A model generated the notes under the pieces. That model made no database searches. It was not told the DNA's origin and worked only from the letters and a program-made list of their open reading frames with translations. The position numbers and the translations under genes are program-made. A stretch of 64,000 nt of DNA from Nostoc sp. TCL240-02 (GTDB lineage Bacteria; Cyanobacteriota; Cyanobacteriia; Cyanobacteriales; Nostocaceae). Of the stretch, positions 6,520-58,613 are shown one piece after another (the first letter of the stretch is position 1; every line of letters starts with the position of its first letter). The stretch covers positions 6,381,001 to 6,445,000 of the forward strand of contig NZ_CP040094.1 of NCBI RefSeq assembly GCF_013343235.1, read 5' to 3'.

Positions 6520-6559
6520 TTGACATCCTCCCTGACCTAAAGGACAGGGAGGATGTCAA
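6520..6559. repeat. Perfect 15-bp stem hairpin, possible IS200/IS605-type end remnant
   Basis: The arms TTGACATCCTCCCTG and CAGGGAGGATGTCAA are perfect inverted copies around a 10-base loop. This sequence type is familiar from the ends of TnpB-carrying IS200/IS605 elements in cyanobacteria, but no tnpA or tnpB gene lies alongside. The rest of the 626-bp gap (6232-6857) shows only a small dispersed repeat near 6471-6504. A transcription terminator is the alternative reading. Confidence 0.5.
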
Positions 6560-6857
6560 GAGATATGGTCATTGAATCATCCGGCGCTCAGAAATCCATG
6601 TTTCCTTCATAACCAGTCCAATTAGCGATCGCTAGAAATATACCGGATAGAATATCTTTGGTCGTGGGCACTAGAACAGGGTACAGCACCACTGAACAGC
6701 CCCCCCAATTTTAAATATTTAGCTTAGAACAACCCTATTCATACCTAAACTGACAGTTAAAACAGCAGATGTAGACCATCAATGTCAGAATACTGAATCA
6801 TGGGATGAAAAAATAAAGGTGAGTAATACCCACACCCAAACTTGCTAGTCAAAATCT

Positions 6858-7451
6858 ATGACTTTGACCCCCTCTCAAACTCGAAAGCGACCCACTCAAG
6901 CGATCGCAGCCAAAATTTTCCACTGGTGTAACATCATTAGCCTGTTTATCATGCTCACCAGTGGACTACAAATTTACAACGCCAACCCTGTTTTTGGTGG
7001 ACGTGCAGGTTTGCACATTCCTCCGATATTTACATTAGGAGGTTGGCTTGCAGGAGGTAGACACTGGCATTTTGCTGCAATGTGGCTATTCTCGCTAAAT
7101 CTCTTGTGGTATGGAATTTATATTTTAATTACTCGACGCTGGCGACATCGGTTTGTCGGTGCAAATGACTTCAAAGCATTACAAAAAAGTCACAATTCCA
7201 AGCGCCTAATTTATGCTTGGCATCGGATTGTGTATACAGCAATTATTCCAATCTTGCTGCTGGCGTTATTTACAGGAATAGGAATGTATAAACCTGCTCA
7301 ATTTCCCTGGATTGTGGATTTATTTGGCAATTGGCAAGCATTGCGAATTGTTCACTTTGCCTCAGTGCCAATGGTTATCTTATTTGCAGTGATTCACTAT
7401 CAATTAGGGCAAAAAGCTGGTGGTACTGAATTAACAGAATCAATGTTTTAG
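6858..7451 (+). CDS. Cytochrome b561/b6-like di-haem membrane protein
   Basis: A 197-residue integral membrane protein with about four hydrophobic helices. It begins with a short basic tail and then KIFHWCNIISLFIMLTSGLQIY, the typical first haem-histidine helix of the b561 / formate-dehydrogenase-gamma-like family. Further histidines sit in GGRHWHFAAMW, YAWHRIVYT and VIHYQLGQ, consistent with two b haems. Such proteins usually pass electrons between the quinone pool and a molybdopterin oxidoreductase; no such partner gene is visible next to it, so the electron donor or acceptor is unknown. The gene stands alone after a long non-coding gap. Confidence 0.8.
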   Translation: MTLTPSQTRKRPTQAIAAKIFHWCNIISLFIMLTSGLQIYNANPVFGGRAGLHIPPIFTLGGWLAGGRHWHFAAMWLFSLNLLWYGIYILITRRWRHRFVGANDFKALQKSHNSKRLIYAWHRIVYTAIIPILLLALFTGIGMYKPAQFPWIVDLFGNWQALRIVHFASVPMVILFAVIHYQLGQKAGGTELTESMF

Positions 7452-7485
7452 TAAATAAACTCTGGTCATAAAAGTAGGAAAGCGC

Positions 7486-7520
7486 AATAACCAATGACCA
7501 ATGATCAATGACCAATGACT
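7486..7520 (+). repeat. Short tandem heptamer repeats (CCAATGA type)
   Basis: Four imperfect copies of the heptamer CCAATGA/TCAATGA run up to the next gene. Such heptamer arrays are common in heterocyst-forming cyanobacteria and argue that the pyrF reading frame really starts after them. Confidence 0.65.
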
Positions 7521-7531
7521 ATTTAAAAAAA

Positions 7532-8965: not shown

Positions 8966-9054
8966 GAATTGGGAATTGGGAAGATTTTTTTGCCGTTGAG
9001 TATATTTTCCCAATTAAATGTAGTAAATAGAATAATTTTAGTTTTAAATTAATT

Positions 9055-10149
9055 ATGAATTTTCCACTCAATCAACTACTTAGATGGTTAATTTTTACGC
9101 TGTTATTTCCTCTAGTGTTTCTCAATGGTTGGCTAGCATTTTTGCTTGTTAAAAATTTTCAACCTGTCGTAACAATTCTTGTCTTAGCTACTTTGCTTGC
9201 ATTTGTTTTAAACTATCCTGTTACTATTCTTCAAAAGCAAGGAGTGAAACGTGGCTATGCAGTATCATTAGTTTTTATATCAGCATTGATAATTATCGTT
9301 GCTCTGGGTATCACTTTGGTTCCCATTGTTTTAGAGCAATTTAATGAAATGGCGAAAGTTCTTCCTCAATGGATTGATTCTAGCGAAGAAAAACTTCAAA
9401 CTTTAAATGCTTGGTTCTCTAGGCACAAATTAAATGTAAATTTAAGTCAGCTACTAACACAAGTAACTGACCAATTACCTAATGAATTCGAGTTCGTTAC
9501 GGATAAACTTTTAAGCATTATTAGAGATACGATTGATAGTGTTTCTGATGCCTTAATCATAGTAGTGCTGACTTTTTACCTCTTGTTAGATGGCCCAAGA
9601 ATTTGGGAGGTAATATTTAAAAAGTTGCCTGGAAGTTTTGCCCAGAAGGTAAGACAGTCTATTCAGCAAAACTTTCAAAATTACTTGATTGGGCAGGTAA
9701 CTTTGGCTTTTCTGATGGGTGCTTCATTAACATTATTGTTTTTAGCTTTTCAAGTCCAGTTTGCTTTACTCTTCGGTTTGGGAGTTGGACTTTTGAGTTT
9801 AATTCCCTTTGGCGATGTCGTCAGTCTTGTTGTAATCACTTTCATAATAGCCACACATGACTTTTGGCTAGCGGCGAAGGTTTTGGCGGTAGCTGTTGTG
9901 ATAGACCAGTTAATCGATCAGGCGATCGCACCACGGCTTTTAGGCAGATTTACTGGGCTTAGACCAATATGGGTGTTAATTGCTTTACTTGTAGGAACCA
10001 ATGTCGGTGGAGTTTTAGGTTTGCTAATCGCGGTACCTGTAGCTGGTTTTATCAAGGATGCAGCAGATGGTTTTTATAAATCTGGTGATTCTGAGAATGT
10101 AGTTAAAAGTGAAGTAGCATCAGAATTGTTGCCAGAGGAATCAGTATAG
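9055..10149 (+). CDS. AI-2E family transporter (PerM/UPF0118)
   Basis: A 364-residue polytopic membrane protein with about seven to eight helices. It begins with two N-terminal helices, has the soluble loop typical of the family (VLPQWIDSSEEKLQTL...), and ends with the conserved DQLIDQAIAPRLLGR and VGTNVGGVLGLLIAVPVAGFIKD segments. Family members export signalling molecules or act as sodium/proton antiporters; the substrate cannot be told here. The last 25 residues are a charged, probably cytoplasmic tail. Confidence 0.88.
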   Translation: MNFPLNQLLRWLIFTLLFPLVFLNGWLAFLLVKNFQPVVTILVLATLLAFVLNYPVTILQKQGVKRGYAVSLVFISALIIIVALGITLVPIVLEQFNEMAKVLPQWIDSSEEKLQTLNAWFSRHKLNVNLSQLLTQVTDQLPNEFEFVTDKLLSIIRDTIDSVSDALIIVVLTFYLLLDGPRIWEVIFKKLPGSFAQKVRQSIQQNFQNYLIGQVTLAFLMGASLTLLFLAFQVQFALLFGLGVGLLSLIPFGDVVSLVVITFIIATHDFWLAAKVLAVAVVIDQLIDQAIAPRLLGRFTGLRPIWVLIALLVGTNVGGVLGLLIAVPVAGFIKDAADGFYKSGDSENVVKSEVASELLPEESV

Positions 10150-10212
10150 AAATGAGTTGTTTATAAAAATAAGATGCCATATTACCGTTAATACTAAGTT
10201 GCAACGGTATCA

Positions 10213-10503
10213 TTAAGGATGAAGTGTAATAGTCAGAATAGTTATAACTCCTTGTTCAGATCCGTAATACCAAAAAACTCGAAAAGCAGCAGGTGTTTTG
10301 TTTTCTACATAAGCTTCAAAAATTTCTTCTCCATTGGGCCCTGATAAAGATTCATATTTGTGAGTATTCAAACTAGGGTGTCGTAGGTTTGTTTCCATTA
10401 AACCCAGCGTTTTTAAAACTTTTTGGTACTTCTTAGAGTCAGTTTGTTGTAGTTTAGCTAGTGCTGTACTAGCCTCGCTTGAAAATATTATCTTAAAATT
10501 CAC
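10213..10503 (-). CDS. RelE/ParE-type toxin of a type II toxin-antitoxin pair
   Basis: A 96-residue basic protein starting MNFKIIFSSEASTALAKL, with the compact alpha/beta layout and the final strand-rich AAFRVFWYYGSEQGVITILTIT segment of the RelE/ParE fold. Members either cut mRNA at the ribosome or poison gyrase; which applies cannot be read here. It lies 85 bp downstream of an AbrB-like gene on the same strand, the expected antitoxin-toxin order. Confidence 0.7.
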   Translation of the reverse strand: MNFKIIFSSEASTALAKLQQTDSKKYQKVLKTLGLMETNLRHPSLNTHKYESLSGPNGEEIFEAYVENKTPAAFRVFWYYGSEQGVITILTITLHP

Positions 10504-10588
10504 TATTGCTCAGTTTGGTAGATTAACCCTTGTAACAAGGATTATGTTTTAAAATTAGTGTTCAGAGCTAGTGTCCTGGTGACATCCT

Positions 10589-10879
10589 CTATTCATCAAT
10601 TTCTATATCCGCATACTCGGCAAACGAACCTAAGTCGTGAAGTTCACCAGAACTTGCCTGTTTTATACCAACTTCTAATGAGCTACGAGCTACAGAATTT
10701 TGCCATATCCAAAGTTCTCTTTGTGGAATGTTTACAATTGGATCTAGCAGAATTTGTCCTAACTCATTAATCAGCACTCGGTAACTCTTTGCTTTGGCAA
10801 CAGTACCCAAGGTTAATCGTCCTTTGTTATCAGTTTTGACACTATCTTTAACTATTTGGAAGTCCTGATTTTCAATCAT
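10589..10879 (-). CDS. AbrB-like antitoxin partner
   Basis: A 96-residue protein. Its N-terminal half (VKTDNKGRLTLG..., YRVLINELGQILLDP) looks like a swapped-hairpin SpoVT/AbrB DNA-binding domain; its acidic C-terminal half ending EYADIEIDE could wrap the toxin. It precedes the RelE/ParE-like gene and probably represses the pair. The family call rests on motif likeness only. Confidence 0.6.
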   Translation of the reverse strand: MIENQDFQIVKDSVKTDNKGRLTLGTVAKAKSYRVLINELGQILLDPIVNIPQRELWIWQNSVARSSLEVGIKQASSGELHDLGSFAEYADIEIDE

Positions 10880-10961
10880 ATTGCTGCTATGCTGCTATAT
10901 CCTAAACTCATTATAAACATCTGTGGGTAAGTGGGTATTGCCCACTTACAAGAAAATTGCA

Positions 10962-10992
10962 TAAAAAAGCCCCCAGTATATCTACTGAGGGT
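10962..10992 (-). terminator. Rho-independent terminator of clpC
   Basis: On the minus strand, downstream of the clpC stop, the stem CCTCAGTA/TACTGGGG is followed by CTTTTTTAT. A second hairpin (GTAAGTGGG/CCCACTTAC, 10928-10950) lies just beyond it. Confidence 0.75.
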
Positions 10993-11108
10993 GAGAAATA
11001 ATACCATTTCACTTTATGTTTGTCGGAGATGACCCTGCGATCGCCTCTACTTAGATGAGAGGCTAATTATTTCTCAAATATTACAGCAAAAAGCGATCGG
11101 GTATAAAA

Positions 11109-13562
11109 TTAGCCAACATTTGCCAAGAGCAATTCTCGTTTTTCTAATTTTTGTACTCTCACCTGAGAGTCATCATCAACATCGATAAGCGCTGTGTCTC
11201 CATCTGTAATTTGACCAGACAGCATTGCTTCGGCGAGAGAATCTTCTAAAAGGCGCATAATTGCCCGACGTAATGGTCTTGCACCATAGCTGGGGTTATA
11301 ACCTTCTTGCACTACAAGTTCTTTGAAGCGATCGCTAACTTCAAGAGTAATCCCCTTTTCTGTCAAGCGTTTAGAAACTTCACGAAGCATAATTTCAGCA
11401 ATTTGCTTCACTTCATCCCTAGAAAGCTGGGTGAAGACGATAATTTCATCGAGACGGTTCAGGAACTCAGGACGGAAGTAAGCTTTCAATTCTTCATTTA
11501 CCAAGGTGCGGATACGGTTATAACTAGCGTCGGCTTGAGTGTCGAAGTCAAAGCCTAAACCACTACCGCCTTTTTCAATCACCTTGGAACCGATGTTGGA
11601 AGTCAAAATGATCAGCGTATTCTTGAAGTCTACTTTCCGACCTTTGGCATCGGTAAGATGACCGTCATCCAAGAGTTGCAGCAGCATATTGAATACATCG
11701 GGGTGCGCTTTTTCGATTTCGTCAAATAGCAGCACTGTGTAGGGTTTCCGCCGCACGGCTTCTGTAAGCTGTCCGCCTTCGTCATATCCGACGTAACCCG
11801 GAGGCGAACCAATTAACTTAGCGACGGTGTGGCTTTCCATGTATTCGGACATATCTAGCCGAATCATCGAATCTTCCGCACCGAAGAAGTAGGAAGCTAG
11901 TGCCTTCGCCAATTCTGTTTTACCGACTCCGGTAGGGCCAGAGAAGATAAAGCTAGCAATGGGACGATTGGGATTTTTCAAGCCGACGCGGGCGCGACGG
12001 ATACCGCGAGATACAGCCGAAACTGCTTGCTCTTGACCGATAAGGCGTTGATGCAGAGTGTCTTCTAGGTGCAGAAGTAACTCTGACTCAGATTCCGTCA
12101 GTTTGTTGACTGGTACACCAGTCCAAGAGGCAACAATTTGGGCGATGTCTTCTTCGTCAACCACAGTCGAGTTTACAGGTTGCTCGTTTGGTGTAAACGT
12201 TGCTTGCAGTTGTTCTGCAAGTTTTAACTCTTGGTCGCGTAGGGTTACAGCTTTGTCAAAATCTTGGACTCTGACTGCTGCTTCTTTTTCTTTGGTAACG
12301 CCAGCGAGTTCACGCTTGAGTTCTTTATTAGGAGAACTTTGAGAGTTCCGCAGACGAACGCGAGAACCAGCTTCATCAATTAAGTCTATTGCCTTATCTG
12401 GCAAGAAGCGATCGCTAATATAGCGGTCTGATAATTCTGCGGCTGCTACAAGTGCCGAATCCAAAATTGTGACTTTGTGGTGCTGTTCGTAAGCGCCGCG
12501 CAAGCCGTAAAGAATTTGTACGGTTTCTTCTACTGAGGGTTCTCCAACCATAATCGGTTGGAAACGACGCTCTAAGGCGGCATCACGCTCGATATGCTTG
12601 CGATACTCATCGAGGGTAGTTGCGCCGATGCACTGGAGTTCACCCCGTGCTAAGGCAGGTTTGAGGATGTTTGCTGCATCCAAACCACCTTCTGTACCAC
12701 CAGCACCAACCAAGGTGTGAATTTCGTCAATTACCAAGATGATATTGCCGACAGTGCGAACTTCTTCCACAACTTTTTTGATGCGTTCTTCAAAATCGCC
12801 ACGGAAGCGAGTTCCAGCCACCAATGACCCCATATCGAGGCTGATAACTTGCTTGTCTTGCAAACTTTCGGGAACATCTTGGTTGATAATTCTTTGAGCT
12901 AGACCTTCTGCGATCGCAGTTTTACCAACTCCTGGTTCTCCAATCAACACGGGATTATTCTTAGTGCGGCGACCGAGAATTTGGATTGCCCGCTCAATTT
13001 CTTTCTCACGACCAACAACGGGGTCGAGTCTGCCTTCTTGCGCTAATTTGGTCAAATTTCTGCCATATTCTTCCATCGTTAGCGGTTGGGTGCGCTTTTG
13101 ACTACCACTACCAGCGAAAGCTGGTGCATTTTCACCCAAACGGCGAACTATGGCACTGCGAACAGTTTTGAAGTCAACTCCTAGATTTTGTAGAACTTTA
13201 GCGGCGACACCTTCACCAGCCTCAGTTAATCCTAAGAGTAAGTGTTCTGTGTTGATGTAATTCTGTCCCAGACTATGAGCTTCTTTAAAAGATTGCTCGA
13301 AGAGGCTTTTCACCTTGGGAGTGAAAGGAATTTCTGGTGGTACAAAGCCAGAACCCCTACCAATAATTTTTTCTACCTCACGACGTGCGTCTTTGAGGGT
13401 AACGCCTAATTCGGCCAGCACTTTAGCAGCAACCCCAGTTCCTTCTCCCATCAAACCCAGGAGAATTTGTTCAGTTCCTACGAAATTGTGTCCCAGGCGA
13501 CGTGCTTCTTCCTGAGCTAGCATAATTACTCTAATGGCTTCGGAAGTGAAGTGTTCAAACAT
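11109..13562 (-). CDS. clpC: ATP-dependent Clp protease ATP-binding subunit ClpC
   Basis: An HSP100 unfoldase that feeds proteins to ClpP. In order: two Clp-N repeats (from [17 protein letters not shown] to about residue 145), AAA-1 with Walker A GEPGVGKT (208-215), a UVR/M domain (about 422-457), and AAA-2 with Walker A GPTGVGKT (542-549) and the [12 protein letters not shown] pore-type motif. The 817-residue length fits cyanobacterial ClpC. The frame stays open 19 codons upstream, but homologues begin at MFEHF and a GAGGGA-containing stretch precedes that ATG, so I start there. A long 5' leader of about 340 bp separates it from the next gene. Confidence 0.97.
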
Positions 13563-36969: not shown

Positions 36970-37371
36970 TTAATTCTCAAACAAACTAGTATCAACGTGA
37001 AAAAAGCTCCCTAACACCTTAGCCATCTCCTGGGTAATTTCTTGTTTTCCACTCATAACTTGAGAAACAACCTCTCTTGAACCAAGAATTTCTACTAACT
37101 CAGCTTCTTTAACACTCTGAGCTTCGATTAGATGGAGGAACATAGAGTGCGCCGTTGATTCTCCTATTGGATAATGTTCATCCTCATATTTTTCTATTAG
37201 AGTGATCAACAGGTCTAATAATGCCGATTCTTCTAAAGTTCGGTTAACTCGATGAGATAGTTCCTCAGCTAGTGTAATAACTTGCTCATTTTCCTCATCT
37301 GTTTTAATAACCTTGGGTTGATATTTAGCAAGCAAACTAGCATAAGTTTCACGGTTAAAAGTAAGGGTCAT
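36970..37371 (-). CDS. higA: HigA-type antitoxin, copy 1
   Basis: A 133-residue XRE-like antitoxin. Residues 85-133 carry the helix-turn-helix (EAELVEILGSREVVSQVMSG with EITQEMAKVLGSFFHVDTSLF). It overlaps the upstream higB gene by 17 bp, the usual toxin-first HigBA order. HigA should neutralise HigB and repress the operon. Confidence 0.87.
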   Translation of the reverse strand: MTLTFNRETYASLLAKYQPKVIKTDEENEQVITLAEELSHRVNRTLEESALLDLLITLIEKYEDEHYPIGESTAHSMFLHLIEAQSVKEAELVEILGSREVVSQVMSGKQEITQEMAKVLGSFFHVDTSLFEN

Positions 37372-37654
37372 TTTTCCAGTTATCCTTATCGTATTCTGCG
37401 TGCGTCAAAATGTATTTAAGATAAATTATTTGGTCACTATAAACCAAATCAACTATCAGACGATATTTGTTACCTTTGATATTAAAAACAGTAAAATTCC
37501 CAACAGCTTCTGCTTGAGGATAAACTGCTTGCACTTGGGCAAGATTATTCCATGTAGCTTTATTGGCAGTCTTATACCAGTTTTTAAGTGCATCACAGGA
37601 ATCAGCATAATTTTGGCAAAATTCTCGCAGCTTTTTACGACTGATGATGTGCAT
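37355..37654 (-). CDS. higB: HigB-type toxin, copy 1
   Basis: A 99-residue mRNA interferase of the HigB family: MHIISRKKLREFCQNYADSC, VGNFTVFNIKGNKYRLIVDL and YLKYILTHAEYDKDNW. It is intact here. It begins only 5 bp after the stop of the Hsp70-family gene, so it may be transcribed with the island operon as well as from its own promoter. Confidence 0.9.
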   Translation of the reverse strand: MHIISRKKLREFCQNYADSCDALKNWYKTANKATWNNLAQVQAVYPQAEAVGNFTVFNIKGNKYRLIVDLVYSDQIIYLKYILTHAEYDKDNWKNDPYF

Positions 37655-37659
37655 TATAT

Positions 37660-39258
37660 CTAACTCAACTGTGCCACAAGTTGATTTTCCAAAAGCGTGT
37701 CATTCGTTAACAAGTCTTCAACGGTGATTCGCAAAAAGCGTTGTTCATCAACTTGAAAGAGAATTTTGATGCGATCGCTTCCAGGATATCCTGCTGGTTT
37801 CAGTTGAGCAATTGTTCTTGCGCCTTCTTGATCGTTGAGAGGCTTGACGCTGGTTTCATTATTATCCAGACGGCGAGTAATTAAGCGATCGCCATCAAAA
37901 TAAACTTCGGTATTACCTGTATCTGCTCCCAATTCTCCCATAATTAGTTCAATACTAAGCTGATTTTCCAAAGAAGCACCTAGAACTAATTCCACTGGCT
38001 GACTCATTGGATATGCCTGTCCAGCTTTAATTAGAGAATGCCATTTGTGGCGTTGATTGCGGCGATCCCAGTAGCGAATACCATAACTATGATACAGAAA
38101 GTCTTTGATTTGTATCCCTTGAGCTAACTGTAATGCACCTTGAGCGATCGCTTCAAATGGACGTTCGCAACGGATTTTTTCTGGCTCAAAATACTGTTTT
38201 ATCCATGTCTGCACTGCTGGTAATTGCACTGTTCCACCAACTAACAAAACGGCATTAATATCAGGAAGTTCTATCCCTTGGCGTTTTGCTTGCTGCAACA
38301 GTGTCGTCATCGATTCATCCAATAACTCAAAAAATGCGTGTTCTTTGAGGATATTATCAAAAATGTCGCGGTTTAATTCCAATTCATAACTTTCAAATGT
38401 TTCATCATCAAAATAAACTTCACTAGCCTGGTTTTGGGTTGATAGCTGAATTTTTACTCGTTCTGCCAATCGTGTTGTCAAGGGACTTACCGCCAACTCT
38501 TGAGTTTTGGCAAAGTAATCTACTAACCAATTATCAATATCAGTACCGCCTAGGTTTTGCCCAGCTTTCGCCAGGACACGGGCAGTTTTAACTTTTTGTT
38601 TTGAATCTTCAGCTAGAGACTTATTACCCCACTTGAGGAGAAATCCCAACGGCTTTGTAGTTGCTTGCACGCCTTGATCCAACCGGATAAGGGACAAATC
38701 TAAAGTACCGCCGCCGAAGTCAATTACCAAGAGAATTTCTTGATCTGCTAAACCATAACCCAAGGCTGCGGCTGTGGGTTCATCCAGCATCCGCACCTGT
38801 TCGACGGGAAGGGATTGGCAAACGTTTCCCAACCAGTGACGATAGGCTTCAAAGCTGTCCACAGGTACGGTTAACACGAGAGAATCTAACCCACCTTCCA
38901 GAGGCGCTAGTTCTTCAATTACTTTGGTAAGGAACCATTGCCCTACTTGCTCAAAAGTGACAATTTGCCCATCTAATTCGGGTAAGAAACCTTGGATATC
39001 TGCACCAATACCCCGCTTGAAGCTGCGGAAAAATCGCGTTTCGCCTTTGAGGTCAAAACCGCGATCGCGTACTTGTTGACCGACTAAGACTTTATTTTGG
39101 GTTGCGTCTTCAACATAAACCAAGCTGGGAATCAGTGGTGGATTGAGACTTTGTTTGATTGATAAACCTGGTAGAGTCAGGGTTTCTGGCTGCTGGGTTA
39201 CGGGGTTCCAACGAGCAATGACTGTGTTGCTAGTACCAAAATCGATTGCGATCGCCAT
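37660..39258 (-). CDS. Hsp70-family ATPase (DnaK-like)
   Basis: A 532-residue actin-fold chaperone-like protein, shorter than DnaK because the substrate-binding part is reduced. ATP-site motifs: MAIAIDFGTSNTVIARW, VRMLDEPTAAALGYG, LLVIDFGGGTLDLSLI and AVLLVGGTVQLPAVQ. It lacks a GrpE or DnaJ gene next door; instead two coiled-coil genes precede it on the same strand. Divergent Hsp70s with dedicated small partners occur in bacterial accessory regions. I infer it is the energy-using part of the island system; the client is unknown. Confidence 0.88.
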   Translation of the reverse strand: MAIAIDFGTSNTVIARWNPVTQQPETLTLPGLSIKQSLNPPLIPSLVYVEDATQNKVLVGQQVRDRGFDLKGETRFFRSFKRGIGADIQGFLPELDGQIVTFEQVGQWFLTKVIEELAPLEGGLDSLVLTVPVDSFEAYRHWLGNVCQSLPVEQVRMLDEPTAAALGYGLADQEILLVIDFGGGTLDLSLIRLDQGVQATTKPLGFLLKWGNKSLAEDSKQKVKTARVLAKAGQNLGGTDIDNWLVDYFAKTQELAVSPLTTRLAERVKIQLSTQNQASEVYFDDETFESYELELNRDIFDNILKEHAFFELLDESMTTLLQQAKRQGIELPDINAVLLVGGTVQLPAVQTWIKQYFEPEKIRCERPFEAIAQGALQLAQGIQIKDFLYHSYGIRYWDRRNQRHKWHSLIKAGQAYPMSQPVELVLGASLENQLSIELIMGELGADTGNTEVYFDGDRLITRRLDNNETSVKPLNDQEGARTIAQLKPAGYPGSDRIKILFQVDEQRFLRITVEDLLTNDTLLENQLVAQLS

Positions 39259-39430
39259 ATTTTATATTTATTATCTCGCACAAAGAGGCTAAAGCTGCTT
39301 TATCTGTGATTATTCTCCATAAGCCATCAATAATGCAAATGCGCCAAACGCAATTTTTCTACAGAGTAGTCTATTAACTAATGCTTTTGTTATGGTGCAG
39401 CTAGTTTTTATCTGTTCTCTGATGTCAAAA

Positions 39431-39826
39431 CTAGTTCAGTCTGGCTTGTTTGGAAATTCGTCTAGTTATTTCAATTTCTTGCTTAATTTTATCAGCTTCG
39501 TCTTGGCATTCCTCTGCTAGTTCTTCAAGATTATTCGCTATTGACGATACCTCTCGTACTAACTGTTTTGTCTGCGCTGATTTGTGATCGTATTTTTGCG
39601 AGGCTTCTGTAATTTCAGAAAAAATATCTTTGTATTCTTCAGGCGGATTTTCCAACCACTCGTCAAACTCACTTTGCGGTTTTTGAAGAATAGCAAGAGT
39701 TTTTTCCCAGGAGATTTTAAGACGCATATCTAACGTCTTAATCTCCTGGATTTTTGCCTTGAGTTGTTTGGTATTGTTTACTCCAGCTAACTCGTAGACT
39801 TTAGCTTTTAGCTCTTGAAGTTTCAT
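39431..39826 (-). CDS. Small coiled-coil protein
   Basis: A 131-residue charged helical protein (MKLQELKAKVYELAGVNNTK...). The last 50 residues form a heptad-rich coil (QLVREVSSIANNLEELAEEC). No known family is recognised. It lies between another coiled-coil gene and the Hsp70-family gene, on the same strand, and may act as a nucleotide-exchange or adaptor factor for that Hsp70; this is inference from position. Confidence 0.65.
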   Translation of the reverse strand: MKLQELKAKVYELAGVNNTKQLKAKIQEIKTLDMRLKISWEKTLAILQKPQSEFDEWLENPPEEYKDIFSEITEASQKYDHKSAQTKQLVREVSSIANNLEELAEECQDEADKIKQEIEITRRISKQARLN

Positions 39827-39871
39827 AATTACTGTCGAGCATCCCCAATTTAGAGCATTTTATCGATCTAC

Positions 39872-40558
39872 TTATTTTAATTTCTGATAAAGCCTTTCAT
39901 TCTCTTCACGAAGACGCTGACTCTCTTGAACTAATGTAGCAATTTGCTGTTTTTGCTGTTCAATGAAAGCTCTTGCTTCATCTCTTTGCTGCTTATACCG
40001 TTTGGTATGGGCAACTCTTCCACCTAAACTCTTATTATTTTGAGCTAATTCCTGTCTTCGCTTCTCAACTTCATTGTATTTCTTTTTAAGCTGCTCCAGT
40101 TCTTTAACCAATTCCACCTGAGCTTTACTCTTTTCAGCTTCAGATTGGAAAGCTTCATTTTCAGCTTTTAACGAGGCAATTCGTGCTTCTAATCTCTTAA
40201 TTTCTTTGTCTTTGCCAAACAGTTTCTCTTGTAATGCTTTGAGCAGACCCAAGAGCTTGGAGTTTTGTTGATCTTGTTCATTACAAGCTGCTTCAAGCTC
40301 ATTAGCGCGCTCGCGGAGACGACCAGCCCGATTCTGTAGAACTTTAGCTGTACATTCATACTTAATAACAGCAATAACTCTGCTACGCTCTGGTTCATCC
40401 AGTTGTTGAACTTCAGGGCTACGCCAAAGATCATCGTAGTTGGTACAATCATGCCGTAGATCCTGGGTTTTGACGTGTCCAGGAGCCGCAATTAACTCAG
40501 AGTTTTTCAGCCGAACTCGGTCATGCCAGTAGTCAAACAATGCCTTGCTGTCGTCCAT
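39872..40558 (-). CDS. Coiled-coil protein
   Basis: A 228-residue protein. The N-terminal 70 residues (MDDSKALFDYWHDRVRLKNS...) look globular; residues 75-228 are an almost unbroken coiled coil rich in Glu, Gln and Lys. No family is recognised. It follows the interrupted HEPN-like gene once the insertion sequence at 40693-41753 is removed, and ends 45 bp before the next coiled-coil gene, so it belongs to the same operon. Confidence 0.65.
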   Translation of the reverse strand: MDDSKALFDYWHDRVRLKNSELIAAPGHVKTQDLRHDCTNYDDLWRSPEVQQLDEPERSRVIAVIKYECTAKVLQNRAGRLRERANELEAACNEQDQQNSKLLGLLKALQEKLFGKDKEIKRLEARIASLKAENEAFQSEAEKSKAQVELVKELEQLKKKYNEVEKRRQELAQNNKSLGGRVAHTKRYKQQRDEARAFIEQQKQQIATLVQESQRLREENERLYQKLK

Positions 40559-40692
40559 GATTGTGCGATCGCTTGTAAAATAGCTATTTATCTTTAAACA
40601 TAGAGTAACTGAAAGCTCAATAGAAGCCGTATTTACTCTGAACTGCTGTAAAAAATCTTCACTTTGTTGAGTAATCTGCTATCTTCCTTGAG

Positions 40693-41753
40693 TTTGGACT
40701 AATTGGCATTTAGCAGCAATGATAATGATATAGAAGGCAAGAGAAAGTGACCTAACTTCTTTTAGAGGCTGAGTTAAGTGGAATCGTTAAAAAAGAAGCA
40801 GAAACTAAGCAGCAGTTAGATCAGCATTCTTAAGTGATTCTTCGGTTTTAGGTTTTTTAGATGCGTGTTTTTTGACAGTGGAATAACGAGGACGTTGAGG
40901 AGGCTGATGCCCTTGGGCACGCCCAGGTGATTTACCGCGAGTTTTCGGGGGTTGAGCAGGAGTGCCAATACTGGCTAAAATTAGAGGAAAAGCTTGTGCT
41001 ACACGTCCTGGAGACAGTTTATCCTGAGTCGATTGCCAGGGCAAGAGGGAATCAATACAGGCAACTCTTGCGAACCAGAGTTGCCAAGTTAGCAGGGGCA
41101 TCAGGTCACTCCATCGCTCTGCCGCCCGAGTAGAACTCAATTGAGGCTGTGTCCAATATAGCCTCTGTTTGGCAAATCGATACCAATGCAAAGCGAGCAA
41201 AGCGGCGTAGGTATTTTTGCCAGAGATCCTCTAATAGAGGCATTGTCTGACCCAACCAAGCGAGCCATAAGGGTTGGAACTTACGATTGCGTCCAACTGG
41301 TTGGATCACCTTGACGCGAATGATTTCCATTGCCCGGTTTGGGGATTGAAGAAAATGAAACCCACTCCAGCGCATTTCTGGTCGTGACCAAAAGCTATGA
41401 TCTCCTGCTAGAAATGGCTGCTCTTCTGTCGCTACCTGCTTCACCATCAGTTTCATCAGTTTCCTTCTGGGTGGACGACTATCATGCAGTGCTGCATAAA
41501 TGCTCGACCATTGCCGTCGAAATACTGGGCTTTGAGACAAGCTGACAAATGATCGGATACTTGGACTTGTCAATACTGCATTCATCAATTCAAATACTGC
41601 ATCTTTGACCTTCCCCAAACTATCGTAGATAGCTTGGCGGAATTTTTCTAGTTGTGTCAGGATCATCACGTCAATGATTTATCGATTACTTTCATTGACT
41701 TTACGGCAGTCAGTGTTACTGCTGACTGCTTTCCTCTAGCCTTTTAGTCCAAA
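40693..41753 (-). mobile_element. Decayed insertion sequence with DDE transposase
   Basis: About 1.06 kb bounded by inverted ends TTTGGACTA (40693-40701) and TAGTCCAAA (41745-41753). It carries only a broken transposase. I cannot find a clear target duplication, consistent with age. A second remnant of the same family is at 15.8 kb. Confidence 0.65.
40805..41669 (-). pseudogene. Transposase pseudogene, internally deleted and frameshifted
   Basis: The 5' frame (start 41669) reads MMILTQLEKFRQAIYDSLGK through VFRRQWSSIYAALHDSRPPR to AGDHSFWSRPE and then jumps straight to FLQSPNRAMEIIRVKVIQP, a region that in intact members is about 200 residues further on; the YDRGYG catalytic segment is missing. 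Near 41190 the frame shifts, and a second frame continues LALHWYRFAKQRLYW to the proline- and lysine-rich C-terminus at 40805. The element cannot move on its own. Confidence 0.8.
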
Positions 41754-41819
41754 GTCCAGATCTTCGCCATATTTAGACGGGATTTGATAAATGCTTACCC
41801 TGCAATTGAACTAGGAATT

Positions 41820-41937
41820 CTATTTTTGGGGAACGAGCTTAGGCAATACCTGCTCAAGGATTCGTTTTTGGCCATTAGGAGTGAGAGCAACTTCATCCTC
41901 TGCAACAGGTCGAATATCCTTACTTTTGATTAGCCTA
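41820..41937 (-). pseudogene. Severed C-terminal part of the HEPN-like gene
   Basis: Minus-strand translation gives RLIKSKDIRPVAEDEVALTP followed by NGQKRILEQVLPKLVPQK and a stop at 41820. It looks like the wing of a winged-helix domain. Joining it to the 42875-43537 gene through one TA copy restores a single 257-residue frame, so this is the displaced end of that gene, separated by the IS5-like element. Confidence 0.8.
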
Positions 41938-41939
41938 TA

Positions 41940-42879
41940 TAGAACCCATTTGACATCTTTTACTGTATTGAAGTAGAGTGACGGCAAAAGCCATATCCAG
42001 CAGCCATGCCGTACTCTAGCAGCCTAACAGACGAAGAATGGGAAATTCTCGAACCCCTACTGCCGACTATATTGCCTGCTAAGAAACAGACTAGACCCGC
42101 CAACTGGACAAAAAGAGAACTCTTAGATGGCATCTTCTATCAACTAAAGAATGGCTGCAATTGGGAAGACTTACCCAAGGACTTGCCCCCTACTCGACTG
42201 TATATTGGCATTACAAGCAGTGGCGGGGCCAAAAGGAGTGATAGAAGAATTGATGAGAGTTTTACATGGACGAGTGCGTGAACAGGTAAAAAAAAGCTAA
42301 GTGGACGACGCTGATAATTATCGACTCTCAAGCGGTGAAAAACACCTGTAATGCGAGTATTACATCGAAAGGGTATTGTTTCTACTTTCTCGACAAATGG
42401 CATTAAAAGACATCTAGCCGTTGATACCCTGGGGTTTCCCTTCTTTACTCATTGCACTAAAGCAAATGTATCTGATGATAGGGGTTTGATTGAGATGTTG
42501 ACTAAAAACATTGATTATTTCCAGTCAAAACCCGTCAATATTCCCAAAATCACCATTCTGCTAGACCACGGTTATCACCCTGAGTATTTGAGGGAGGAGC
42601 TAGAAAAAGTTTATCCCCAAATGATGACGAAAATCAGGTTTGAACTTTCGGCAAAACCATCAAAACAACAAAACAAAGAATTAGGGAAATCTGGGTTTGT
42701 TCCGGTTGCCGCGAGGTGGGTAATTGAACGGTCAAATGCTTGGATTGAGAGATGCAAAATTCTCGTTAAGAACTTTGAGAGAACTCTAGATAATGCAACT
42801 GCCAAGGTTAATCTTTGTTTCATTCGGCTAATGCTTCAGAGGCTTGCAGCCTCTTCTTAGATGTCAAATGGGTTCTATA
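41940..42879 (+). mobile_element. IS5-like insertion sequence, 940 bp, TA target duplication
   Basis: Perfect inverted ends TATAGAACCCATTTGACATC and its complement at the right, flanked by TA on both sides (41938-41939 and 42880-42881). It carries a frameshifted IS5-family transposase. It has landed inside the HEPN-like gene. Confidence 0.85.
42006..42860 (+). pseudogene. IS5-family transposase pseudogene
   Basis: The N-terminal part is open from MPYSSSLTDEEWEILEPLLP to NGCNWEDLPKDLPP, then several frame changes occur between 42186 and 42400. The C-terminal part continues NGIKRHLAVDTLGFPFFTHC, LLDHGYHPEYL and AARWVIERSNAWIERCK, the last holding the catalytic glutamate region. At least three frames are used, so no active transposase is made. 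Confidence 0.88.
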
Positions 42880-43537
42880 TAGCAACATTAACGTTTTGAG
42901 GGTTCTGGCTGACAGCATGTTCACGTAGTTCAGCCCGACTCAAGCGATTATTGGCGGCATGATACAACAGCAACAGAACTTCATCCGTTGCATAAATATC
43001 TCTTGCCAGAACTAGAGGTTTTCCGTCTAATTCATGAATTACTGAATGTTCTAGTTGAACAATTTGGGCAATAGTTTCTGCAACAATCTTTCGATCTCGA
43101 TTCCAAACTAGGCGGAGAAATTCTGCAAAAATCCATTTGCTTGCATGAAGCACTAGCATTGAATCGATATAATTTGCGGTGTACTCGGTTGATATGTGAA
43201 CAGCACCGCGATCAGAGCGAAACCCATATACAACCTCAATCACTTTAGCCAAATGATAACGATCCTTCGAGCCAAGTTGATGGGGAATATTTTTGTTCAA
43301 TAAATCTTCACGAACCTTACCAGGCAATTTTCGATGATCAATCTTTCCGGTATCCATTTGAAGCAAGCAACGCGAAATCGCTTCACAAAACCGCCCACCG
43401 TCTAGTTCTGTTGGTTGCCAGTCACCAGCTAGAAATCGTTGCTGCATTTCGACGTAGCATTCAACCACTGCATGGGCAAAGTGAGAGTCAATAATTGTCG
43501 AAAGTTCCTGAATTAGTTGCTCAGATGTCCTTCTCAT
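42875..43537 (-). CDS. HEPN-like / abortive-infection-type protein, truncated by IS5
   Basis: The surviving frame gives 220 residues, the last one coded by the IS end. The helical middle (YHLAKVIEVVYGFRSDRGAVH, with R107 and H114 spaced as in the HEPN RNase motif R-X4-6-H) and the following YIDSMLVLHASKWIFAEFLRL resemble HEPN/Abi-C-like domains of defence proteins. The C-terminal 60 residues begin a winged-helix-like domain (RLSRAELREHAVSQN) that is cut; its end survives at 41820-41937. It starts 2 bp after the zinc-ribbon gene, clearly one operon. The assignment is motif-level only. Confidence 0.6.
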   Translation of the reverse strand: MRRTSEQLIQELSTIIDSHFAHAVVECYVEMQQRFLAGDWQPTELDGGRFCEAISRCLLQMDTGKIDHRKLPGKVREDLLNKNIPHQLGSKDRYHLAKVIEVVYGFRSDRGAVHISTEYTANYIDSMLVLHASKWIFAEFLRLVWNRDRKIVAETIAQIVQLEHSVIHELDGKPLVLARDIYATDEVLLLLYHAANNRLSRAELREHAVSQNPQNVNVAI

Positions 43538-43539
43538 AG

Positions 43540-44850
43540 TTACACCTCACCAGAATTTTCAGAAGATTCATCGGTGGATGCGTTACTTTGTATAAAGCCT
43601 GTCAATCGTTCAACCTCAGCCAAACCTGGAGATAGTAATTGGAAGCCACTTTGCACTTTAATCAAACTTCCTTGTCCTGAAGCTGCTTGTAAAGTGCGTT
43701 CTAAATGACGCTCATCTATCTTGATACCAAATCCCAAATACAGAAACTGTTTTAGCTTGTAGCTTGAAACCACTATTTCAGGGTTGCTTATTGCTTTACC
43801 AATTGCCCACAGGCCAAACAATCCCTTCTGAATGACTGTGCAATCTTTAATGGCTGCATGAAAATCAATATTAGAGGCGAGTGGTTTCCAGTTAGCTACC
43901 CAAGACTCCACTTCTTTGGAAAATACATTATTCTTGCGTTTGCTAGTCTTTGTGGAATTTTCTGAATCCTCCTCACTTTTCGCACTAGACTTGGAGCCTC
44001 GTGAAGTTGCACCTGTAGTTAAATTCCACTTGCCCGTTATCTTGTCATCAAGTACCTCTGCGAGAACTTTTCGCGCTTGCTCTTGTCCCGACAGTCGTAG
44101 CCCAACCATATCTCTCTCAACAATCAAGTCAGCACTTCTGCCAATCCATGCGATGGCATTGTTGTCATACAACCCAACTCTTTTAAGAATGTCATTTAAC
44201 TCATTACGAGGAATTTCCTCTCGTCCATCGACATCCAATGAGTACAGGAGAACCAAATATGTCAGCCTACGTCCCGCATCTAATCTGTTTCCAGCTTTGA
44301 GCCGCGTTTCCATTAGCTGTAGCTGTTCTCCATTGTGCCGGAAAATATGTTTTAACTTGTCAGCGTCAATTCCATGAGCAGCAGGAAGTTGAGCAACTGT
44401 ATCAATTGTAGATTTATTGTTCTCGTCGCCGGATTCGTCGTTGAACAAGGAAAGTTGTTGAGGTTCGGCATTACTTAAATCACGAATCACAGAACGACTA
44501 TTAGGTGGTTTTCCAGGTGTCATTTGTCCACCAACGATCGCGGTGATCGCGGCACCACCCCAGCTAATACCTACTTCGTTGCTCAGAGATGCCTCAATCT
44601 CTCGTGAGTAGCCTTTGCTGGTTTCAACAAATTTTAATGTATTCATTACGGCAGGTAGAAGACCATTATTACTGGATGCTGATCCGTTATGCCCTTCACC
44701 TATTGGGGTTCCACACATTACACATCCTTTTGCACCGGGAAGAAGTATTTCATAGCAGTCTTTGTTTTTACACCGAATCTGTTGAGGACAGTTAGAACAG
44801 TAGAATCCATTGCTAGACAAGGGATGTTGGCAGGAGGGGCATGTTTGCAT
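43540..44850 (-). CDS. Double-zinc-ribbon protein with winged-helix-like C-terminus
   Basis: A 436-residue protein. Residues 1-50 hold paired zinc knuckles (CPSCQHPL, CSNCPQQ, CKNKDC, CVMCGTP). A low-complexity linker follows, then a helical central domain (about 150-265), a Ser/Lys-rich linker (KSSAKSEEDSENSTKTSKR) and a C-terminal helical region with a winged-helix-like end (KIDERHLERTLQAASGQGSL). I do not recognise the family; nucleic-acid binding is likely. It is the first gene of the minus-strand set, facing the WYL regulator across 191 bp. Confidence 0.65.
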   Translation of the reverse strand: MQTCPSCQHPLSSNGFYCSNCPQQIRCKNKDCYEILLPGAKGCVMCGTPIGEGHNGSASSNNGLLPAVMNTLKFVETSKGYSREIEASLSNEVGISWGGAAITAIVGGQMTPGKPPNSRSVIRDLSNAEPQQLSLFNDESGDENNKSTIDTVAQLPAAHGIDADKLKHIFRHNGEQLQLMETRLKAGNRLDAGRRLTYLVLLYSLDVDGREEIPRNELNDILKRVGLYDNNAIAWIGRSADLIVERDMVGLRLSGQEQARKVLAEVLDDKITGKWNLTTGATSRGSKSSAKSEEDSENSTKTSKRKNNVFSKEVESWVANWKPLASNIDFHAAIKDCTVIQKGLFGLWAIGKAISNPEIVVSSYKLKQFLYLGFGIKIDERHLERTLQAASGQGSLIKVQSGFQLLSPGLAEVERLTGFIQSNASTDESSENSGEV

Positions 44851-45041
44851 ATTTTTAAGTCTCCAAAACTCTATTTGAACTGCATTTTACAAAGAGGTTC
44901 AGATAGAGCGCGACTATTTGGCAGTATTAGAGGCTATAAAATGAAATCTTTAGGAACTATACTTAGCAAAAGTTTTAAACTTTTTAGAAATTACAGGTCA
45001 ATACTTTTATATTATTGACTTTTCAGGGTGAAATATAGTTT
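44851..45041. promoter_or_regulatory. Divergent control region of the island
   Basis: The 191-bp gap separates the zinc-ribbon gene and the WYL gene. It holds a near-palindrome around AAAAGTTTTAAACTTTTT (44968-44985) and a clear inverted repeat at 44997-45019. Both promoters must lie here. Confidence 0.5.
44997..45019. promoter_or_regulatory. Candidate operator GTCAATA-N9-TATTGAC
   Basis: A perfect 7-bp inverted repeat with 9-bp AT-rich centre, ending 22 bp before the WYL regulator start. Its place and symmetry suit a dimeric WYL/HTH repressor controlling its own gene and the divergent operon. Confidence 0.5.
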
Positions 45042-46208
45042 ATGGCGCATTCTTATGCTGCTCTTCCTGCCTTCGAGCGACTTTTACTATTAATTGCAAC
45101 CTTTGTCCGATACCCAGGAGTTGGTTGTATTGATCCTATGCAATCTGACTCTAATAATCATGATACATTACAATTAGTACAATTGTACCTACAAAAAGTA
45201 GCAAGCGAATTAAATGTAAAGCTATCGCCATATTCGCGTTATACCATCCAAAAAGATTTGAAGACTCTTCGTCGCTATGGACTTTTGGATAGGCGACCTT
45301 ATCGATGGGGTTACTATGTTGGTAGAGGTTTAATGAATCAGGAGGAGTTACAAGTTGCGCTCAATGCCCTACACTCTCAGGCAAGATATCAGGAAGACCC
45401 TCAAATTAACCGGATCTATGAAAGACTAATGCGGCGATTAGGAGGGTTAAACCTGAAAGATGAGATGCTTTATCCGGTGAGAACCCAATTAGACCGAGTT
45501 ATTGTCTACACCGATCCGGTGGAAATGATGGCCAAGGGCAAATATCAAAGCCGAGGCACGTTATTTGAAAAACTAAATATACTTGAAGCAGCAATTATTA
45601 AAGGACAAGCAGTTGAGCTTTATCGCTGTCGTAATCCGTACAATCCCAACAAAACTAGATATGAGCAAGTTTATCCTTTACAATTGATTTATGCAGACAT
45701 TGCTTGGTATTTGTTGCTGGAAGACTATAACAACGGTCATCTCGTAGTGTCACGTATTGATCGCTTTAGCGATCACTTCAATGTTCTGGATAGCAAAGGC
45801 CGCGGCTTAGATAGCCAATGGAAAAGCTTACATATCGCTCATCAGCTCTTAAAGGCAGGTTGTGGCTTGAAGTTGGGTTTAAGAGAAGAGCAACAAAAGG
45901 AGATCCGTGGAGAACTGGAGCTTGTAGAAGTGAAAGTTCGATTTTTCCCTGAAGTTATGGAATTTATACAGGAGGGAGAAAAGCGACATCTTCACCAAGA
46001 AATCAAACCAGGACCTAAGGAAAAAAATGGTAAACCTGCTTACGTAGATTACATTGTTAAATTGCCTGAGCGATCGCTGGAGGAGTTTTGTCGCTGGGTG
46101 TACCGCTTCATGGGCAATGCTCAGTTCATCTCTCCTCAATATCTAGCTGAACAACACCAGAAATTTGCCCGTGCATTAATAGATCGGTATTCTTCCAAAG
46201 CTATATAG
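45042..46208 (+). CDS. WYL-domain transcriptional regulator
   Basis: A 388-residue regulator. The N-terminal third is a winged HTH region (FERLLLLIATFVRYPG, YTIQKDLKTLRRYGLLDRRP). The WYL domain spans about residues 170-250 with QVYPLQLIYADIAWYLLLED and VVSRIDRF; a WCX-like C-terminal extension follows. WYL proteins such as CapW and BrxR sense ligands and silence neighbouring phage-defence operons. This one is divergent from the island operon and therefore its likely regulator. Confidence 0.82.
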   Translation: MAHSYAALPAFERLLLLIATFVRYPGVGCIDPMQSDSNNHDTLQLVQLYLQKVASELNVKLSPYSRYTIQKDLKTLRRYGLLDRRPYRWGYYVGRGLMNQEELQVALNALHSQARYQEDPQINRIYERLMRRLGGLNLKDEMLYPVRTQLDRVIVYTDPVEMMAKGKYQSRGTLFEKLNILEAAIIKGQAVELYRCRNPYNPNKTRYEQVYPLQLIYADIAWYLLLEDYNNGHLVVSRIDRFSDHFNVLDSKGRGLDSQWKSLHIAHQLLKAGCGLKLGLREEQQKEIRGELELVEVKVRFFPEVMEFIQEGEKRHLHQEIKPGPKEKNGKPAYVDYIVKLPERSLEEFCRWVYRFMGNAQFISPQYLAEQHQKFARALIDRYSSKAI

Positions 46209-46330
46209 ATCGGGATGATTGACCATCCAACTTTAACATAAATTTTTCCGTGCCCAGTTTTTGTAATACAACCCTCTTCCGAATTCGCTATAATTTTATC
46301 CGTCAAAAAAAGACTGATCCTCTCAATTAG

Positions 46331-46378
46331 TAAACTACCTACCACTAACTCGTAGTATTGGGTTAGTGGTGGGTAGTT
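46331..46378. terminator. Bidirectional hairpin between convergent genes
   Basis: Arms AAACTACCTACCACTAAC and GTTAGTGGTGGGTAGTTT (18 bp, one G-T) around a 12-base loop, with short A and T runs outside. It separates the WYL gene from the convergent small exported-protein gene. Confidence 0.75.
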
Positions 46379-46383
46379 TATGC

Positions 46384-56981: not shown

Positions 56982-57410
56982 ATGTTTTTTGGTAATAGTC
57001 AACCAGAATCAAGTGATAGTAAGTGGCGTGGCCAGTTGGATAAATTTGTGAAAGCAAATCAGCAAGAGTTGGCAGCGCTGTTTTGGGGATTGTGGCTAGC
57101 AAATGGTGACAGTAAAGGTACTGTTGGTATTGATTTGCAACCAACGCCGCATTTTGTTTATTGTCCGAAAGAACAGATAGAGAATTTAAATATTAAGGTT
57201 GAGAATCGGCTTCAGGAAATTTTGGGAATTGTCGAGAATCATAAGCCGGAAGTGGAAGTTGTGATGATTGGGATTGGGAAGGGGGAAATTAAGTTAATTC
57301 AGTTTGCACCGGAACCAGCACCACCGATTTGTTTTGAGCAATCTGGGAAGGATGTGGATGGGTTATTGGATGTGCTGGAAGAGAGGATGAGGGAGGAGAT
57401 TGTTTTTTAA
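56982..57410 (+). CDS. ccmS: CcmS-like beta-carboxysome assembly chaperone
   Basis: A 142-residue soluble protein starting MFFGNSQPESSDSKWRGQLD; the nine codons upstream are repeat-like (TTACGAATTACAAATTA), so I prefer this ATG. It has ELAALFWGLWLANGD, GIDLQPTPHFVYCP, LQEILGIVENHKPEVEVVMI and KLIQFAPEPAPPICFEQ, as I recall for the cyanobacterial family annotated CcmS. CcmS helps beta-carboxysome assembly through CcmK1. The carboxysome shell genes at the window end are 6 kb away. Family call from memory only. Confidence 0.65.
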   Translation: MFFGNSQPESSDSKWRGQLDKFVKANQQELAALFWGLWLANGDSKGTVGIDLQPTPHFVYCPKEQIENLNIKVENRLQEILGIVENHKPEVEVVMIGIGKGEIKLIQFAPEPAPPICFEQSGKDVDGLLDVLEERMREEIVF

Positions 57411-57436
57411 CGCAGAGGGACGCTAAGTTTTCCGTC

Positions 57437-57844
57437 TTATGACTCAAAAAAAGCAGCAGGCGAAATATGAAAAAACTGCGCGAGGCGAGCGATATGGTTA
57501 ACTGTCAATTTGCGCTGTCCACTCAAGATTTCAGAGACAATAGACTCAGTTTTAAAGATAGGAATTAAATCTTTTTGTCGCAAAACAAATTCGGCTATTA
57601 ACGCTTGAAGTAATTCTACGCCATGAATATCAGGTATAGAATGATGTTTTTGCTCGTACTCGTAAACCAGAGTACCTAAAACATTAAGATAGTCTTTTTC
57701 ATCTGGTGTTAATTCACCTTTATCAATTAGAGAATCGATTACTTCTTGCGTAGCCAGAAATTCTTCCTCGGAAGTTACGGGACGAGGAGGAAAAGATTTG
57801 AGTAATTTAATATAGGTTTTAGTAACACGTGTTTCAGAGGTCAT
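57437..57844 (-). CDS. higA: HigA-type antitoxin, copy 2 (orphaned)
   Basis: A 135-residue paralogue of the antitoxin at 36970. The C-terminal HTH reads DLIPIFKTESIVSEILSGQR and then KLTVNHIARLAQFFHISPAAFF. Its toxin gene upstream is broken by an amber stop and is 227 bp away instead of overlapping. It could still act as a repressor or cross-neutralise other HigB toxins. Confidence 0.85.
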   Translation of the reverse strand: MTSETRVTKTYIKLLKSFPPRPVTSEEEFLATQEVIDSLIDKGELTPDEKDYLNVLGTLVYEYEQKHHSIPDIHGVELLQALIAEFVLRQKDLIPIFKTESIVSEILSGQRKLTVNHIARLAQFFHISPAAFFES

Positions 57845-57862
57845 TTTGCCAGATATCTAATA

Positions 57863-58053
57863 GTTTCAATCCCTAATAGGGATTTTGATTAATTGGAACT
57901 CAAACAATTTGGCTCATATTAACATCCAGATTATCTGATATTTTCAATCTCTAAAAGGAATTTTAATTAATTATAACTTAGGAATTATATTCATGCTGCT
58001 GTTCAACTATCTGATGGTTTCAATTTCTAAAAATGATTTTTTAAATTGTTAGC
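57863..58053 (-). CRISPR. Three degenerate CRISPR-like repeats (relic array, no cas genes)
   Basis: Three 37-bp repeats at 57863-57899, 57941-57977 and 58017-58053, spaced 41 and 39 bp. On the minus strand the best copy begins GTTCCAATTAATCAAAATCC and ends CCTATTAGGGATTGAAAC, with the CCCTAATAGGG palindrome and the GATTGAAAC tail typical of cyanobacterial CRISPR repeats. The second differs at 7 positions, the third at more. The base pairs right after each repeat on that strand are alike (TATCAGATA), which true spacers would not show. No leader or cas gene is seen. Confidence 0.45.
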
Positions 58054-58071
58054 CTAAAAGAATATTTAGCA

Positions 58072-58374
58072 TCAAGCGAACCAATGATCATTTTTCCAGT
58101 CATCTTTGTCATATTCGGCATGTGTCAGTATATGGCGAATAAAAACTTTTTGATATTCGTAATCTACTAAAGTAATCAGTCGATAATTATTACCACCTAT
58201 GTTAAAAACTGTGAAATTACCGACTTGATCGGCTGATGGAAAAGTTTGGCGTAACTCTACTAAGTTCTGCCACTTTGCTACAGATGTAAGTTTGTACCAT
58301 AATCGCAGGCTAGTTTCTGCATTAGAGTGCTTTTCCTAGAACTCAGAAAGTCTTGCACGACTGATAATGTGCAT
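58072..58374 (-). pseudogene. higB: HigB-type toxin, copy 2, with amber stop at codon 13
   Basis: Translation from 58374 gives MHIISRARLSEF, then TAG (58336-58338), then an otherwise complete HigB: LRLWYKLTSVAKWQNLVEL, VGNFTVFNIGGNNYRLITLV and ILTHAEYDKDDWKNDHWF to a TGA at 58072. It is closely similar to the intact HigB at 37355. One base change disables the toxin. Confidence 0.85.
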
Positions 58375-58613
58375 AAAATTTTGGTGAAGGGTATTTTTTC
58401 ATAGAGGTATTTTTTGGTCGGATACTAGATAATCTTAGCAAATTGCGAAGTTATTGTAGATATTGCCCAATTGACTTTTAAAAAAACGGTATTCACACGG
58501 GAGAAAATACTCTCATCGGGGAAAACTAATAAATGTGAAGGGTGCTAAAGTATCTGCGTCTTTTTCCCTTCCTGGTTTAAAGCCATAGGGTTCCTAAACT
58601 TCCATGAGGTTAT

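Follow-up and report, generated by a model that had tools for sequence, protein, structure and literature searches.

Which genes around a broken HEPN-domain gene on the chromosome of Nostoc sp. TCL240-02 belong together, and what might they do? The window analysed here (a 64,000-nucleotide stretch, positions 6381001-6445000 of one 7.89-Mb contig) was the subject of an original prediction that proposed a single defence or stress operon, consisting of genes for a double-zinc-ribbon protein, a HEPN-like protein, two coiled-coil proteins, an Hsp70-family ATPase and the HigBA pair, facing a divergent WYL regulator. We found that this gene set is too wide. The zinc-ribbon protein (ZnR), the HEPN protein, the coiled-coil proteins of 228 and 131 amino acids (CC228 and CC131) and the WYL regulator form a mobile unit, which we read, with a probability of about 0.57, as a WYL-controlled cassette built around a HEPN RNase and serving in defence (abortive infection) or in a toxin–antitoxin-like role.

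A cassette at four chromosomal sites in Nostocaceae

DNA comparison of related loci delimits a cassette of 4.8 kb, bounded by the WYL stop codon and a point shortly beyond CC131, in the order WYL and then, divergently, ZnR, HEPN, CC228 and CC131 (Table 1). Each gene named in the original prediction is an open reading frame where it was placed, and the spacings given there were recovered: 2 bp from ZnR to HEPN, 5 bp from the Hsp70 stop to HigB, and 191 bp between ZnR and WYL. The related loci came from a profile scan of genome contigs with a HEPN alignment, which returned 16 loci, and from 31 wider stretches added from further genomes; these sets overlap in part, L008 and G617 (our handles for loci and genomes) having identical coordinates.

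The five genes occur together at four sites in Nostocaceae. The first site, beside Hsp70, is occupied in the window, L010, L012, L013 and L014. The second adjoins a pPIWI_RE operon in L009 and, by clustering, in L011 (PADLOC PprPIWI, E 1e-48 in L009; Pfam pPIWI_RE_Z), the third has its own set of flanks (L008, L111), and the fourth is L113, where the DNA match is partial and 67–68%. The L010 cassette (2782-7551) matches that of L111 (4349-9113) at 85% DNA identity, and those of L009 and L011 at 81–87%, with unrelated flanks in all cases. CC228 and CC131 lie downstream of HEPN in 10 of 10 readable Nostocaceae loci (window, L008-L014, L111, L113). As a separate observation, the pPIWI_RE operon (about 10300-16777 in L009 and L011) is a repeated neighbour, found by clustering beside a CC228 fragment in L119 as well.

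The Hsp70 site was inspected in six same-genus survey genomes (L120-L125), all of which lack a HEPN match. L125 aligns to both sides of the cassette without containing it, passing from window position 39341 to 46383 with 142 bp of other sequence between, and L123 does likewise from 39345 to 46337 with 658 bp. In L122, Hsp70 is followed by the far-side gene, while L124 has different neighbours at Hsp70. Scars are present in L120, where a 50-residue WYL end lies beside a pentapeptide-repeat gene, and in L121, where a 44-residue WYL end adjoins fragments of CC228 drawn from its first 33 residues. The cassette is mobile, and its deletion has left scars in relatives. A search for carriage of the cassette by phages or plasmids gave no match.

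Table 1. Features of the locus, in window coordinates
Feature	Coordinates	Strand	Remarks
WYL/WCX regulator	45042-46208	+	388 aa; divergent from the ZnR-HEPN operon
Shared control region	44851-45041		191 bp, between ZnR and WYL
ZnR	43540-44850	-	436 aa; double zinc ribbon (8 Cys), linker, two predicted winged helices; proposed sensor/partner
HEPN-winged-helix protein	42875-43537	-	Cut at residue 220 by IS-A; proposed RNase effector
HEPN Rx6H motif	43196-43219	-	R107-H114 (RSDRGAVH)
HEPN C-terminal coding part	41823-41957	-	Stranded past IS-A; edge overlaps IS end
IS-A	about 41935-42882	+	Insertion sequence; ends uncertain by a few bases
IS-B	40687-41759	-	Insertion sequence; transposase in two overlapping frames
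CC228	39872-40558	-	228-aa coiled-coil protein of the cassette
CC131	39431-39826	-	131-aa coiled-coil protein, last cassette gene
Hsp70-like protein	37660-39258	-	Resident chromosomal gene, not a cassette member
HigB	37355-37654	-	Not a cassette member
HigA	36970-37371	-	Not a cassette member

ZnR and HEPN form the conserved core

In 26 of the 28 loci with a HEPN match, the gene immediately before HEPN, in the same orientation, is ZnR. These come from 29 scanned loci, among which L138 holds only a HEPN fragment that the scan missed. Within the 26, ZnR is a remnant in L014 and is cut near a contig end in L008, L013, L015 and L019. The exceptions are L023, where ZnR adjoins the first half of a split HEPN, and L132, where the partner is a protein of 206 amino acids without a zinc ribbon. 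The two genes are separated by -4 to 26 bp across 18 loci. The pair is also found in Acidobacteria and in one Ktedonobacterales genome, and a distant intact paralogue pair is present elsewhere in this genome (L005). Neither CC228 nor CC131 was found in the readable stretch of nine out of nine loci outside Nostocaceae (L015-L023; L023 extends only ~0.6 kb downstream), and it is this that identifies the ZnR-HEPN pair as the conserved core. A WYL gene of the cassette's family was likewise absent from the seven such loci with upstream sequence.

ZnR has eight conserved cysteines and a single family match, a weak one to DZR, below its Pfam cut-off. The pair is co-inherited, ZnR and HEPN identities covarying with a Spearman coefficient of 0.89 over 153 pairs from 18 loci, which share members and ancestry. 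ZnR diverges faster than HEPN: for HEPN identities of 50–75%, the means are 58.7% for HEPN and 31.8% for ZnR (53 pairs).

The coiled-coil genes are less tightly bound to the unit. CC228 occurs in 10 of 145 family genomes (E 1e-20), accompanied by a close HEPN in four (G000, G542, G610, G617) and without HEPN in six. One of the six, G536, retains a ZnR remnant; in G077, CC228 itself is reduced to a fragment that adjoins the pPIWI_RE cluster; and in G523, G606, G556 and G321 neither ZnR nor HEPN could be traced within the stretch fetched around CC228. CC228 can thus exist without the pair, which weakens the case for it as a required part. In Leptolyngbya sp. AN03gr2, the names returned by protein searches suggest that the pair is linked to CC228, with locus tags 05385 (ZnR), 05395 (HEPN) and 05400 (CC228) and one tag between the first two. 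The weak library matches of both coiled-coil proteins look like coiled-coil noise.

Several further observations concern these genes. In L023 (Ktedonobacterales, 6313-8594) the HEPN gene is split by a 409-amino-acid reading frame, making it another broken copy. Genes for YhcG (DUF1016/PDDEXK) stand beside or near ZnR-HEPN in L015 (1765-2424), L016 (8950-10016) and, by clustering only, L020 (496-1737). In L116, a DrmD/BrxH-like helicase (8521-11616) is found close to CC228 and CC131, which occur there as a pair without ZnR-HEPN. We also considered whether the Acidobacteria loci L017, L018 and L021 have a gene after the pair in common and rejected this; the genes after HEPN (478-602 amino acids) fall in separate clusters, and their PADLOC matches are weak or absent.

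The HEPN protein keeps the superfamily motifs

The 220-residue HEPN product gave no family match above cut-off or noise in Pfam or NCBIfam, and its profile found no sequence relative among solved structures at E 10. It does carry both motifs of the HEPN superfamily. The Rx4-6H motif is present as R107-x6-H114, with R107, R110 and H114 invariant in 116 sequences and in 18 divergent ones, and the residue following R107 is S or N in 22 sequences of one alignment. The Ex3[KR] motif, as defined by Anantharaman 2013 (PMC3710099) in the sections drawn on here, is present as E52-x3-R56, invariant in the 18 divergent sequences. All five residues are unchanged down to 21–25% identity. The predicted structure places a winged helix at the C-terminus, and MarR-like winged helices appear in both the HEPN and the ZnR models. 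The motifs and, more tentatively, the predicted fold support the HEPN identity, and the protein is a putative RNase.

The WYL regulator and its control region

The WYL protein matches WCX above the Pfam cut-off, WYL at 19.1 bits (cut-off 21.8) and HTH_11 at E 0.048; a comparison with solved structures gave no sequence match at E 1. The gene faces ZnR in all eight Nostocaceae loci with sequence there (it is broken in L014 and L113), and also in L112, whose contig ends close by and whose ZnR is incomplete. Complete copies, 81–90% identical, were found in L009-L012, L111 and L112, and the broken copy in L113 is 52–65% identical.

Matches to the WYL protein occur in 37 of the 145 family genomes (E 1e-30), this genome included. 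We fetched wide stretches around five relatives at 52–60% identity, taken from the top of the list and not at random, and these bear out the expectation that such regulators lie near defence genes. One divergent gene set is common to L126-L128; it includes a DEAD helicase, which in L127 matches DruE1 at 8e-126. The relative in L130 faces an operon with Cas1 as its second frame. The L129 relative faces a 291-amino-acid ZnR, 40% identical to the cassette ZnR over the latter's first 165 residues, followed by a different protein of 251 amino acids without a family match; from its RNMAAH motif we read the second protein as HEPN-like, and the pair (8270-9908) is a possible effector swap.

The control region contains a candidate operator (44869-44908), comprising 12-bp inverted arms around a 16-bp spacer, 19 bp upstream of the ZnR start. 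It is present in seven of eight cassettes and absent in L113, with 12 of 12 arm positions matched in L009, 11 in the window, L011, L111 and L112, 10 in L012 and 9 in L010 (the last by eye). In 200 first-order shuffles of the L009 control region, 12 matches were reached in none, 11 in 3 and 10 in 57. Since the cassettes are related, these instances amount to close to one observation, and the repeat is a candidate only. The motif was not found at the WYL relatives L126-L130.

State of the local copy

Both insertion sequences (IS) announced in the original prediction were located. IS-A has perfect 24-bp terminal inverted repeats (41935-41958 and 42859-42882) and breaks the HEPN gene at codon 220, relatives of the protein being about 259 amino acids long. 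The segment stranded beyond it encodes the missing end, corresponding to residues 215-259 of relative P0056 at 87% identity with no internal stop. Near-full copies of IS-A at 99–100% number nine in this genome, including the one in HEPN. IS-B sits in the spacer between HEPN and CC228, flanked by 6-bp direct repeats (ATCTTC), and has one other long copy and fragments elsewhere in the genome. The corresponding region of L010 and L012 contains neither element. Inactivation by the two insertions, as originally proposed, is plausible, but IS-A is the only one of them that disrupts a gene. As it removes a large part of the C-terminal winged helix of HEPN, the copy in this strain is probably dead.

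Resident neighbours and other features of the window

Hsp70 and HigB match their Pfam families above cut-off. Hsp70 is present in 142 of 145 family genomes (E 1e-60), and in L120 HigB starts 5 bp past Hsp70, as in the window, although the cassette is only a scar there. Remnants of HigBA follow Hsp70 in L122 and L123, and none was seen in L125. The distribution of Hsp70 and the sites without a cassette led us to reject Hsp70 and HigBA as members; being near-universal in the case of Hsp70, and both present in L120 without an intact cassette, they are resident neighbours. The original claim of one operon thus stands for ZnR, HEPN, both coiled-coil genes and the divergent WYL, and falls for Hsp70 and HigBA.

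Elsewhere in the window, a 135-amino-acid protein (57437-57844) resembles HigA by eye. An Rfam CRISPR-DR5 repeat (57863-57899, minus strand, 56.5 bits) is solitary and not part of an array, since no direct repeat of at least 20 bases occurs in 57400-58500.

Proposed function and competing readings

In the reading we favour, WYL would repress the ZnR-HEPN-CC228-CC131 operon from the shared control region, by analogy with CapW and BrxR in the portions of PMC9122588 and PMC9122601 consulted, and an infection or damage signal would cause it to release that region. ZnR, encoded ahead of HEPN, would bind HEPN and use its zinc ribbon and winged helices to serve as a sensor or to hold HEPN in check. 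Once triggered, HEPN would act as a metal-independent RNase on cellular or phage RNA, leading to growth arrest, dormancy or death, as the HEPN toxins treated in PMC3710099 suggest. CC228 and CC131 would be accessory and lineage-specific. Weighing against this scheme, the operator match of L012, too, stands at chance level.

Comparison with known systems shows partial likeness. According to the relevant parts of PMC3710099, HEPN toxins and Abi effectors share the Rx4-6H motif with a polar residue after R, the Ex3[KR] motif and an operon with the partner gene first, and the cassette protein may have a helical HEPN-like fold, going by its predicted structure; however, the cassette partner is a zinc-ribbon/winged-helix protein instead of MNT or a ParA-like protein, and its effector has a C-terminal winged helix. 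MNT-HEPN pairs have the same two-gene layout with HEPN second, but no nucleotidyltransferase was found here, ZnR matching only DZR. The same source mentions a zinc ribbon-HEPN fusion, Npun_R5629. CapW and BrxR, as far as those two accounts describe them, resemble the cassette regulator in belonging to a family beside defence genes and perhaps also in having WYL (below its cut-off here) and a C-terminal domain and in an inverted repeat of the control region, here a candidate; they differ in length (BrxR is about 295 amino acids, the cassette WYL 388) and in that the latter faces ZnR-HEPN. In agreement with the original statement that no named type fits, PADLOC-DB 2.0.0 (2023) gave 0 families for ZnR and 0 for HEPN at E 1. 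We recognised no description of ZnR-HEPN in the titles and abstract openings searched, newer defence catalogues being outside that search, so that a name may exist.

The most serious rival, though we consider it unlikely, is a stand-alone type II-like toxin–antitoxin pair maintained by addiction and not by phage defence, in which HEPN would be an RNase toxin and ZnR the antitoxin that also represses its own expression, with WYL, CC228 and CC131 as later additions. The chief difference from the WYL-controlled defence reading is the trigger, and sequence can hardly tell the two apart. The two-gene core with closely spaced or overlapping genes suits it, as do pairs that have neither a WYL gene nor coiled-coil genes. 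Against it, ZnR exceeds the usual size of antitoxins; loss with scars in L120 and L121 speaks against strong addiction, and each of the four Nostocaceae sites retains the link to WYL. The partner-first order does recall MNT-HEPN pairs, in which MNT is nearly always the first gene (PMC3710099, in part).

We regard as improbable that the pair is a non-defence regulator of stress or transcription, with two DNA-binding winged-helix proteins and the HEPN domain serving as a binding scaffold. The MarR-like helices of both models would fit, and some HEPN families have lost the motif, according to parts of PMC3710099, yet here all five motif residues persist into the most divergent sequences, and the cassette is patchy, mobile and often broken. 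Least credible by far is that the whole originally proposed set works as one CoCoNuT-like system, Hsp70 and HigBA being functional components. The genes are adjacent on one strand in the window (for Hsp70, also in L010, L012, L013 and L014), but Hsp70 is resident at sites without the cassette and does not adjoin it in L008, L009, L011, L111 or L113. What the locus shares with CoCoNuT type IV restriction, in the sections of PMC11090510 considered, are only the words coiled coil, zinc ribbon, HEPN and Hsp70, and no McrB-like GTPase was found among the eight proteins.

Tentatively, the defence reading could be widened, and ZnR-HEPN may be an unnamed modular immune chassis of at least three bacterial groups, combining a fast-evolving zinc-ribbon/winged-helix sensor with exchangeable HEPN RNases and packaged in Nostocaceae with WYL and two coiled-coil proteins as a mobile cassette. 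This draws on L129, with its zinc ribbon and linker followed by an RNxxAH protein, and on L132, whose partner lacks the zinc ribbon.

Close relatives with an empty site or a scar offer ready natural comparisons. If the defence reading is right, a HEPN-RNase system without a matched name, with a sensor of unusual make-up, would be added to the defences of filamentous cyanobacteria and of Acidobacteria, and one WYL family would be the switch for several unrelated defence operons within a single bacterial family.

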